NCBI GenBank assembly: GCA_023511615.1
Contig: JAIMBL010000019.1
Coordinates: forward strand, 1-37,119
Direction of reading: 5' to 3'
Origin: Leptolyngbyaceae cyanobacterium HOT.MB2.61
GTDB lineage: Bacteria; Cyanobacteriota; Cyanobacteriia; Leptolyngbyales; Leptolyngbyaceae
DNA: 37,119 bases
Position 1 is the first letter of the stretch. Each line of letters opens with the position of its first letter. The position numbers were made by a program, and so were the translations under genes. The notes below the pieces were generated by a model. It was given only the letters and a program-made list of their open reading frames with translations, was not told the origin of the DNA and ran no database searches. This document shows positions 24,425 to 27,079 of the stretch, piece by piece.

Positions 24425-26140
24425 GTGGGGAAGTTGAGTCAAGTGGGTTTTTCTGCCTGGTTTCGAACCGTTTTGATTTTTTTGCTGCTGACGGGTGTTG
24501 TGTTTCGCTTTGTCAACTTGAAGCACAAGGCTTACTGGCATGATGAGGTTTACACATCCATGCGGGCCGCAGGTTACAAAGGGTTAGAGATTGGCCAGGA
24601 ACTGTTTACCAACCAGGTGATTCCATTTGGCGAATTGCAGAAATATCAGCAAATCAAGCCAGAGAGTACCCTTGCAGACACGGTTAACTCTCTGGCGAAG
24701 GAAGATCCGCAGCATCCCCCACTCTACTTTGCTATTGCCCGGTTTTGGATGCAGTGGTTTGGCAGTTCTATCATCGCCTCCCGGCTGCTTGCCGTGTTTT
24801 TTGGCCTGCTGGCAATACTTTTGATGTATGCCCTTGCCTGGGAACTTTTTGCTTCCCATTCTGTAGCTTTGATGGCGACTACCCTACTGGCCCTGTCGCC
24901 CTTTGATGTTTTGTTTGCTCAAACGGCCCGACAGTACAGTCTTCTTACAGCAACCACGATTGGTAGCTACTGGCTTCTGGTCCGGGCGTTGCGAACTGGA
25001 GTGAACCAGCCCAGGAATCGAGACGCGAACACGCAGCGATCGAAGTTGCAGTGGAGAGATTGGGGACTATATGCCCTGTCAGTCGTATTGGGTTTGTATA
25101 CTCACCCCTTCTTTGGTCTGACGGTCATTGGTCAAGTAGTCTATGTGGGATTGAAATGGTTCGCAAATCGACCGGGGCGGAGTGTTTCGGGACAGGCTGA
25201 AAGAAGGCGCGGTTGGGTACTGAGATTTGGGGTTGCGATCGCCGCGGCACTGATTCTCTATGCTCCCTGGCTATGGGTGATGATCACAAACGCCCAACGG
25301 GCTCTGTCGGTTACTAGCTGGAGCCAGGGTTTTCCGGGGATAGATTTTTTTGCAAAACTATGGACCCTCAGTTTTACGTCCCTGTTTTTCGATCTGTATT
25401 TTGACTCCCAGCTTGTTTTAACCTTTCTGCTGCGGATTCCGATTCTGGTGCTGATCGGGGTTTCTCTCTATGCCCTTTGCCGTCGTTGCGATCGCTCAGT
25501 CTGGCTCCTGATTCTCACTTCAATCCTGGTTCCTTTTCTGTTACTGGCAGTACCCGACTTACTGACAGAAAGTAGACGTTCCACAGTTAGTCGCTATCTG
25601 ATTTCCTGCTACCCCGGCGTGCAACTGGCGGTTGCCTACTTTCTGACGATGAACCTGGCAACGAGTCGGGCCGGTTTAAATGCAGTCAGTAAATCTCGTA
25701 GAACTTCCAGCAACCATCCACTGAATCAATGGATGCGACGAGGATTTTTTGCCCTTCTGGTTACGGGTAGTCTGGCATCGCTTACGGTCAGTGCTCTCTC
25801 AGACGGTTGGTGGCATATTGTTCCAAGCAACTTCAATGCCGATACTGCCCGCCGCATCAGTGCGGCATCTTCGCCAATCGTCATTAGCGATTTTGGCTAC
25901 GACTACACCAACCTCGGAGACCTGATATCGCTCAGCTACCTGTTGAACGAAAACATACCACTGGTGGCCGTCCAGACTGCAAATTGGGCAAAAACGAAAG
26001 GCTTCCAGGAACAAATTCAGGGAAAAACAGCGATCGCCTTCCGCCCCTCTGACAAATTGAGAATCGCCCTCCAACAAACTCACGGCCCCCTGCTGCAACT
26101 GTCACCAACAGAAAACCTCTGGCAGCTTTCCAAAAATTAG
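24425..26140 (+). CDS. GT-C type membrane glycosyltransferase (family 39/83-like)
   Basis: A polytopic protein of 571 residues with about ten hydrophobic helices between residues 14 and 460. WHDE at residues 38-41 in the first luminal loop is the acidic motif of PMT/ArnT-type GT-C enzymes. Such enzymes transfer sugar from a polyprenyl phosphate on the outer face of the membrane. QHPPLYFAIARFW, LALSPFDVLFAQTARQYSLL and ESRRSTVSRYLISCYPG support the family. The C-terminal 110 residues form a soluble domain. GTG 24425 is the best start available and has no clear Shine-Dalgarno site. The acceptor is unknown. Confidence 0.88.
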   Translation: MGKLSQVGFSAWFRTVLIFLLLTGVVFRFVNLKHKAYWHDEVYTSMRAAGYKGLEIGQELFTNQVIPFGELQKYQQIKPESTLADTVNSLAKEDPQHPPLYFAIARFWMQWFGSSIIASRLLAVFFGLLAILLMYALAWELFASHSVALMATTLLALSPFDVLFAQTARQYSLLTATTIGSYWLLVRALRTGVNQPRNRDANTQRSKLQWRDWGLYALSVVLGLYTHPFFGLTVIGQVVYVGLKWFANRPGRSVSGQAERRRGWVLRFGVAIAAALILYAPWLWVMITNAQRALSVTSWSQGFPGIDFFAKLWTLSFTSLFFDLYFDSQLVLTFLLRIPILVLIGVSLYALCRRCDRSVWLLILTSILVPFLLLAVPDLLTESRRSTVSRYLISCYPGVQLAVAYFLTMNLATSRAGLNAVSKSRRTSSNHPLNQWMRRGFFALLVTGSLASLTVSALSDGWWHIVPSNFNADTARRISAASSPIVISDFGYDYTNLGDLISLSYLLNENIPLVAVQTANWAKTKGFQEQIQGKTAIAFRPSDKLRIALQQTHGPLLQLSPTENLWQLSKN

Positions 26141-26194
26141 GTAACTCCAATGATTGCATCCTGTATCTACAATCTGCAATAATTACTTACATTT

Positions 26195-26370
26195 GAAGGG
26201 GAGTAGCTGCTGGTTAATCCCAGCCTGCCTGAATCAACATACTGGTGATGAACCTGGTTCAGGCGACAGATGAGGCGATTAGTTGCCAGATGCTCGTTGT
26301 TACTGATGACCACCCCTCTCTAACAACCAGCAACTAACAACTAGCAACCCTCTGTAAGCGAGACCTTCAC
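26195..26370 (+). ncRNA. yybP-ykoY manganese riboswitch
   Basis: The 5' part GAAGGGGAGTAGC (26195-26207), a middle TCAACATACTGG (26233-26244) and the 3' part TAAGCGAGACCTTC (26356-26369) are the hallmarks of the yybP-ykoY class. GAAGG and CCTTC close the basal stem. This class senses Mn2+ and controls manganese exporters, and the next gene is one. The arm between the two halves is long and carries a STRR-like run, CAACCAGCAACTAACAAC (26324-26341). An expression-platform hairpin follows at 26384-26427. Confidence 0.85.
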
Positions 26371-26383
26371 TGAGTTCATGATT

Positions 26384-26427
26384 GAGTGAGCTTGGTGAAG
26401 TCGTCTCTGTCCTCATCAAGCTCGCTC
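26384..26427 (+). promoter_or_regulatory. expression-platform hairpin of the manganese riboswitch
   Basis: GAGTGAGCTTGGTGA (26384-26398) and TCATCAAGCTCGCTC (26413-26427) pair over 15 positions, with two G-U pairs in RNA. No U-tract follows, so it is not a classic terminator. GTGAAG (26395-26400) could instead pair with CTTCAC (26365-26370) of the aptamer 3' part, which offers a switch between two states. GGAG (26451-26454) is the likely ribosome-binding site, ten bases before the ATG. Confidence 0.6.
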
Positions 26428-26464
26428 AGATGCTAACAAGAGAATCCTGAGGAGCTGAGAGGAC

Positions 26465-27079
26465 ATGCTGACAGCCTTTACTGCCGGGCTTTTGCTAATT
26501 ACAGTTTCTGAATTGGGCGACAAGACGTTTTTTATCACCACGCTGCTGGCGATGCGTCATTCTCGCCGGCTGGTTTTCGTGGGTGCAGTTGCCGCGCTGG
26601 CGGCCATGACCGTACTTTCGGTTCTGATGGGACAGGTAGCCACCCTTTTACCTGCAAAACTGGTTCACTGGACTGAAGTAGCTCTGTTCATTGGATTTGG
26701 GCTGAAGCTACTTTACAACGCCAACCAGATGTCTTCTGCTCCCCCTGACAATGAAGTTGAAGAGGCCAAAGAAGCCATTGACGATGCCAGCCCCAAACTA
26801 GCCCACTGGAGGGATGGCTGGGGCATTGTTGCCCAATCCTTTGGACTGACCTTTATGGCAGAGTGGGGCGATCGCACCCAGTTTACGACCGTTGCTCTGT
26901 CGGCTGGCAACCATCCCCTGGGTGTAACGGTTGGGGCGATTGCAGGGCATGCCGTTTGTGCTGCGATTGCAGTTCTGGGCGGTTGTTTTGTTGCCAGACG
27001 CATCTCCGAACGCGCCATTACTGCCCTGGGAGGGGCTCTGTTTTTACTCTTTGGAATCGTAGCGGCAGCAGGCCGGTAA
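26465..27079 (+). CDS. mnx: TMEM165/GDT1-family manganese exporter (Mnx)
   Basis: The 204-residue protein has six predicted helices in two repeats, each with the family motif ExGD(K/R)T: SELGDKTFF (Glu16-Thr21) and EWGDRTQF (Glu133-Thr138). The acidic linker (about 95-115) separates the halves. Cyanobacterial members (Mnx) move Mn2+ out of the cytoplasm into the thylakoid lumen or periplasm. The upstream manganese riboswitch strongly supports this role and predicts induction at high Mn2+. It stands alone. Confidence 0.93.
   Translation: MLTAFTAGLLLITVSELGDKTFFITTLLAMRHSRRLVFVGAVAALAAMTVLSVLMGQVATLLPAKLVHWTEVALFIGFGLKLLYNANQMSSAPPDNEVEEAKEAIDDASPKLAHWRDGWGIVAQSFGLTFMAEWGDRTQFTTVALSAGNHPLGVTVGAIAGHAVCAAIAVLGGCFVARRISERAITALGGALFLLFGIVAAAGR

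Follow-up and report, generated by a model that had tools for sequence, protein, structure and literature searches.

The Mn2+ aptamer of the yybP-ykoY family is described as a four-way junction with docking of loops L1 and L3, an architecture found in the L. lactis element, in which a conserved L3 adenosine contacts Mn2+ (PMC6754395). P1.1 is the switch helix of this architecture, and in L. lactis its 3' strand also belongs to a competing downstream hairpin (PMC11087558); translational switching by Mn2+ is described for the leader of E. coli mntP (PMC11647493).

Manganese handling is central to cyanobacteria because of photosynthesis. According to a 2024 paper on Synechocystis Mnx, Mn-dependent control in cyanobacteria is little known, with only ManSR identified (PMC11649195). 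UPF0016 genes are under yybP-ykoY control in 328 of 333 screened strains (PMC7380456), so the association of exporter and riboswitch is not new; the same source names an Anabaena member under ManSR, whereas the Anabaena loci sampled here (L028, L044 and L080) carry the riboswitch. Intergenic heptamer repeats are also known from cyanobacteria (PMC4679880).

The window analyzed here is a 37,119-nt stretch, one contig of the cyanobacterial genome G000 (383 contigs), in which a Mn2+-sensing yybP-ykoY riboswitch probably turns the gene for a predicted manganese exporter on translationally through a relay of pairing strands. No description of such a cyanobacterial relay platform was found in the literature searched, in which coverage of subscription journals is thin; what appears to be new is the platform together with a repeat-built arm.

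Aptamer and exporter gene of the window

The exporter gene and a PMT_2-type gene (24425-26140) flank a gap of 324 nt, and both the aptamer start (26194/26195) and the start codon (26465) lie where the initial annotation placed them. Its call of a downstream exporter is confirmed by Pfam: PF01169 matches over two stretches of the protein, and the translation contains ELGDKT and EWGDRT, the GDT1/UPF0016 motif being two copies of E-x-G-D-(K/R)-(S/T) (PMC7380456). Elsewhere in the genome, two adjoining distant matches, one to each half of the exporter, resemble a split paralogue (G000:C382:12165-12741); that contig has no RF00080 match.

Leaders for comparison were taken from the best 80 of 296 confirmed exporter relatives and from 29 further loci, loci having been obtained for 30 of the 57 genomes with a match; together with the window these gave 108 distinct leaders once L084 (the locus of the window), L087 and L096 (duplicates of L013 and L048) had been removed before counting. 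The sample therefore favors close orthologues; the relatives used, which among those best 80 include named Nostoc, Stenomitos, Pantanalinema and Leptolyngbya members, are 55-71% identical to the exporter. Both aptamer halves occur in order in 107 of the 108 leaders, the single failure being L103, which lacks the element and also has no match to R1, a covariance model of the platform. In four leaders the tblastn match begins inside the gene, and their listed start codons are accordingly wrong.

The leader RNA (26190-26480) folds at -118.6 kcal/mol (z -6.97), and none of 200 dinucleotide shuffles folds as well. At the gathering score of 45 the Rfam model RF00080 has no match in the window; a permissive search returns 26197-26307 at 40.8 bits (E 7.5e-10), which is significant though below the cut-off, and this match together with the conserved aptamer letters bears out the earlier call of a Mn2+ riboswitch. 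The gathering cut-off is considered uninformative here because the E. coli K-12 mntP leader (L170:968-1058) reaches only 44.9 bits, with a match that omits its GCGAGACC half, and because none of 20 related loci and none of 146 genomes across the phylum attains it; 25 of the latter match at E <=0.01 under strict filters, in which weak matches are lost. The cut-off is a curation threshold and no structural feature, and was not taken as defining membership; since the E. coli mntP switch itself falls short, annotation by this score will miss true members. In the window the Rfam match also ends too early; it covers neither the P1.1 pairing nor the GCGAGACC half and puts the long P4 arm in the wrong place. 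Position 26307 was rejected as the end of the aptamer because of the conserved GCGAGACC at 26358 and the covariation of CCUUC with GAAGG. Other Rfam matches from the permissive search (miRNA, snoRNA and sRNA models) were far under their cut-offs and were taken as chance.

The conserved letters fit the published architecture at the level of secondary structure: P2, P3 and P4 of the four-way junction are present in the fold, and P2 and P3 in the alignment (A2, 38 of 40 thinned rows; L029 and L095 were omitted for insertions). Two segments of L3, UCAACA and CUGG, are invariant in all 38 aligned leaders; L3 is the Mn2+ site of the family, and one of its aligned adenosines would correspond to the Mn2+-contacting one. 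The letters of P1.1 are GG/CC in 97 leaders, AG/CU in six and GG/CU, a wobble, in four of 107, with no combination that breaks the pairing; the unconstrained minimum-energy fold of the window leader forms hairpin A instead of P1.1. The E. coli mntP leader has GGGGAGUAGC, UCAACAUAC and GCGAGACC in common with the window (L1, L3 and the 3' half), GCGAGACC likewise comes after the corresponding arm, and a Mn2+ exporter gene lies downstream in both. By every structural test applied to its sequence the leader is a predicted Mn2+ riboswitch, only the Rfam cut-off being missed, and Mn2+ would be the ligand.

A sigma-70-like promoter match (TTGACT, TACGAT, 9/12) is present at L004:2256-2284 and ends about 13 nt before the P1.1 strand, a position from which the RNA would start at the aptamer; no comparable match was found in the window.

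Table 1. Features of the leader and the exporter gene, in window coordinates
Feature	Position	Strand	Basis
yybP-ykoY (Mn2+) aptamer, predicted	26194-26369	+	RF00080 match and conserved 3' half
P1.1 switch helix, 5' strand UGAAGG, into L1	26194..26199	+	sequence; letter pairs in 107 leaders
Loop L1 GGGGAGUAGC	26198-26207	+	invariant except one covarying base in 38 aligned leaders
Helix P2 (GCUGG/CCAGC)	26209..26224	+	minimum-free-energy fold; alignment A2
Helix P3 with loop L3 UCAACAUACUGG (26234-26245)	26226..26265	+	fold; alignment
Arm at P4 position, 92 nt, one long imperfect hairpin	26266..26357	+	fold z -4.8 against 100 dinucleotide shuffles
Dispersed heptad-type repeat in arm (approximate extent)	26311..26353, core 26324-26341	+	genome site counts; BLAST
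Aptamer 3' half GCGAGACCUUCAC	26358..26370	+	identical or nearly so in relatives; outside Rfam match
P1.1 3' strand CCUUCA	26364-26369	+	pairs with UGAAGG, closing the aptamer
Hairpin A (anti-aptamer), takes P1.1 3' strand	26360..26407	+	fold; covariation in 39 leaders
Helix B, 26384-26398 with 26413-26427	26384..26427	+	fold; covariation; excludes A and C
Hairpin C, 3' strand of B with Shine-Dalgarno region	26408..26465	+	fold; strand-swap z -9.4
Shine-Dalgarno AGGAG, 10 nt before ATG	26450..26454	+	AGGAG in 101 of 107 leaders
GDT1/UPF0016 (Mnx-type) cation exporter gene, 204 aa	26465..27079	+	PF01169, E 3.8e-45

Helices A, B and C of the platform

Past the aptamer, the leaders have the potential to form three helices. 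Hairpin A contains a continuous 15-bp stem (26365-26379 with 26386-26400), extended in the window fold by 26360-26364 with 26403-26407. The competing pairing CTTCAC/GTGAAG of the initial annotation (26365-26370 with 26395-26400) is real but is merely the foot of this hairpin, and the unbroken 15-bp stem described there is helix B. That account was right to see competing pairings and missed the third, hairpin C, which encloses AGGAG as well as the start codon's first base and so links the switch to translation. A, B and C share strands and therefore exclude each other chain-wise.

Support for the helices was sought in a strand-swap test, in which the pairing of a leader's own strands is compared with that of strands exchanged between leaders; the test is register-free, and kinship is handled through thinning alone, by an alignment score per base that approximates identity. 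In 40 leaders thinned at <=0.80, A, B and C reach z -8.6, -7.9 and -9.4 (0 of 1000 exchanges each), against +2.3, +1.3 and +0.3 for three unproposed pairings; in 18 leaders thinned at 0.72 the values are -5.7, -4.9 and -7.0 (0 of 2000 each), against +0.9, +1.3 and +0.7. When only six leaders are left at 0.66, A and B fall to z -1.5 and -1.8 and only C stands at -3.6; the unproposed pairing of the A 5' strand with the Shine-Dalgarno also has z -1.5 at this thinning. The start of L112 was corrected by hand for this test.

Column-wise counts in alignment A1 (39 of 40 thinned rows, L107 being omitted for a long insertion) differ among the helices. For A, 97.4% of cells are paired and the covariation score is matched by 0 of 500 shuffles; on two further measures A does not beat the shuffles (two-sided-change pairs 68/500, further pair types 380/500). 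For B, 88.5% of cells are paired, with eight two-sided-change pairs (6/500) and a covariation score matched by 0/500. Counted in a single fixed register, C is weak (71.3% of cells paired, 3/500; covariation score 21/500; two-sided-change pairs 205/500), so its support comes from the register-free test; the register differs by lineage, UCAAGCUU pairing with GAGCUUGA in L004 and CUUAGAU with AUCUGAG in L005. The A 5' strand, the shared strand and the B 3' strand are all altered from the commonest state in L070, L081 and L112; three-way changes are also present in L010 and L028, but there the A 5' letter is common elsewhere, leaving two steps strictly informative. L104 shows one as well, in a less certain alignment. 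At the level of sequence the aptamer signature, the three helices and, through covariation, their strand sharing are thus demonstrated.

Folding suggests that the choice between the helices would fall before the leader is complete. At equilibrium the Shine-Dalgarno of the full window leader is closed with or without P1.1 held (0.0013 in both), B lies 5.4 kcal/mol above the best P1.1-held structure and C wins; opening of the window Shine-Dalgarno at equilibrium through a held P1.1 therefore fails, and transcripts ending before the Shine-Dalgarno were tested. In these, B averages 19.0 expected pairs when the P1.1 strand is held and 4.0 otherwise, with an increase in 104 of 107 leaders (5.2 to 21.5 in the window); more than three B pairs form despite a free A in 20 of the 40 thinned leaders. 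With B formed the window Shine-Dalgarno is 90% unpaired, against about 0% with A free; with B forced across the 107 leaders its mean openness is 0.51, above 0.5 in 58. In 67 of 107 leaders the energy gap between B and the best P1.1-held structure is within 2 kcal/mol. In the 106 leaders of the full-length openness test (L112 has no Shine-Dalgarno at its listed start), holding P1.1 raises mean openness from 0.18 to 0.33; 98 of them open further, 39 by more than 0.2, and one closes by more than 0.2. By sequence and folding, one strand thus pairs with the Shine-Dalgarno in one state and with another partner in the other; this does not hold for the window at equilibrium.

In the favored reading, Mn2+ would let the aptamer dock and hold the 3' strand of P1.1; hairpin A could then not fully form, and its 3' strand would pair downstream as B, which would lock the anti-Shine-Dalgarno strand and permit ribosome loading. 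Without Mn2+, A would invade P1.1, leaving the 3' strand of B free for C to shut the start. Because the site stays closed in equilibrium folds of the window leader even when P1.1 is held, the choice is predicted to fall during transcription: if P1.1 is held when the 3' strand of A emerges, B would capture the anti-Shine-Dalgarno strand ahead of synthesis of the Shine-Dalgarno. We infer the ON direction with Mn2+ from the topology and the exporter gene, and it agrees with that of E. coli mntP (PMC11647493). The platform sequence of E. coli mntP differs; past GCGAGACC its minimum-energy fold, the structure compared, is mainly one long hairpin, and a hidden relay may exist among alternative folds. 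Base-level predictions follow for each of the three helices.

Termination, decay and loss of sensing

The most prominent alternative to translational control is a transcriptional switch, in which A would be an intrinsic terminator built with the P1.1 3' strand, and Mn2+ would prevent it and allow read-through. The topology of A is that of the L. lactis terminator invading P1.1 (PMC11087558), and at least five U occur in the 8 nt after A in 60 of 107 leaders and 15 of the 40 thinned ones, as raw counts. In the window, however, only four of the 8 nt after A are U, with no U run (UCGUCUCUGUCC), and only two of 8 after B, in agreement with the missing U-tract remarked earlier for the 15-bp stem; a terminator scan returned no plus-strand site in the window leader and none at hairpin A in L004, the sole relative scanned. 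As the U-tract is missing, a GC hairpin followed by one is not present and the terminator reading of the window was rejected; a terminator would also leave the covarying Shine-Dalgarno pairing unexplained. The transcriptional switch is accordingly held to be improbable for the element, although termination may be added in some lineages, because U-rich sequence follows A in those 60 leaders. Where the L. lactis competing hairpin is a terminator, that of the window, lacking a U-tract, appears to be the first relay step toward the ribosome site. Control in the window leader is most likely mainly translational, the preference over termination voiced in the initial annotation agreeing with the absence of both a U-tract and a plus-strand terminator site and with the pairing of the Shine-Dalgarno.

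Three further explanations are each considered far less probable than translational control. By analogy, a translational OFF state might be coupled to Rho, which would cut the untranslated leader until Mn2+ relieves both effects; this is very unlikely, and it counts against it that most cyanobacteria are not known to carry a Rho gene. The model for it is E. coli mntP, in which translational switching is accompanied by Rho termination in the leader (PMC11647493). RNA decay was proposed in the initial annotation; the hairpin state would expose or hide an RNase site and translation would be passive, which the position of the covarying third pairing, directly on the Shine-Dalgarno, makes a poor candidate with little probability. 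That the aptamer is degenerate or repurposed, kept as a structure with Mn2+ sensing lost, could be argued from the score below the Rfam gathering value and from an arm grown from repeats; it is hardly credible, however, given that the letters of the Mn site are invariant in 38 leaders, that P1.1 covaries and that E. coli mntP likewise falls below the cut-off.

The P4 arm and distribution of the element

The inflated arm reported for the window is indeed long but is not unique. Arm length ranges from 19 to 140 nt across the 107 leaders, and ten exceed the window; the arm was accordingly rejected as an anomaly of this locus. Of the arms of at least 45 nt, 24 of 31 fold with z below -2. The presence of an intergenic-type repeat in the arm, on its 3' side, is confirmed: CAACCAGCAACTAACAAC (26324-26341) has 132+153 genome sites at <=3 mismatches against 26+30 for the reversed pattern (285 against 56), and BLAST of the arm against its own genome gives 42 matches at E <=1, the arm itself counted, often in heptad runs. 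Three relatives, picked because heptads are visible in their arms, show the same excess of their own heptads over the reversed pattern (85 against 1 in G028, 65 against 0 in G032 and 34 against 0 in G006). Heptads abundant in the same genome occur in the P4 arms of the window, L096/L048, L090 and L086; two of these genomes have CTAACAA-like heptads and the other two CTGACTG- or CTGATTG-like ones. Over 31 P4 arms, mean identity peaks at lags 7 (0.34) and 14 (0.32), against 0.22-0.28 at the remaining lags from 3 to 15; the lag-7 periodicity has z above 2 in 12 arms and not in the other 19. From the site counts, the heptads of the three relatives and the lag-7 identity, the P4 arm of one clade therefore tends to consist of local heptad repeats while still folding as a hairpin. 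The seven-base period is also that of known cyanobacterial heptad repeats such as TAACTGA; the heptads here differ in being CTAACAA- or CTGACTG-like and in forming part of a riboswitch arm.

A wider reading joins the two novelties: a four-strand relay (P1.1 3', A 3', B 3' and Shine-Dalgarno, each pairing with its neighbors only) would carry the Mn2+ signal, and the clade-specific, heptad-rebuilt P4 arm would possibly tune the switch. This combined reading is speculative and, taken whole, rather unlikely; if true, growth of the repeat would make the 3' half of the aptamer appear later and may in that way set how fast, or at what threshold, the switch responds. The series of P4 lengths provides natural material on arm growth in a co-transcriptional switch.

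Although described as unusual in the initial annotation, the platform is ordinary for its group, since the aptamer halves are accompanied by the A strand in the same 107 of 108 leaders. R1, searched in the 146 genomes with strict filters that lose weak matches, gives one match in each of 25 genomes, at least four of which (G000, G013, G051 and G057) contributed rows to the model; all 25 matches adjoin an exporter orthologue, and no other gene was found under the same platform among the 146 genomes. An orthologue at E <=1e-30 is present in 33 of these genomes, including all 25, which again contradicts the oddity of the platform; of the 33 orthologue-bearing genomes sampled, 25 thus have a concrete candidate RNA switch on the Mnx-type gene. 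The upstream regions of the remaining eight orthologues have no aptamer motif near the gene (<=2 mismatches), no R1 match and no RF00080 match; within the 146-genome sample the element is either complete or missing altogether.

RF00080 matches at E <=2.5e-4 also occur outside the class, in the same phylum, in G076 (two places), G090 and G105, with no R1 platform match beside them. Among the element-less loci (L162-L169), L163, L167, L168 and L169 display repeated AAAATGA-like words upstream when inspected by eye; a transcription factor binding these words may have taken the place of the RNA switch.
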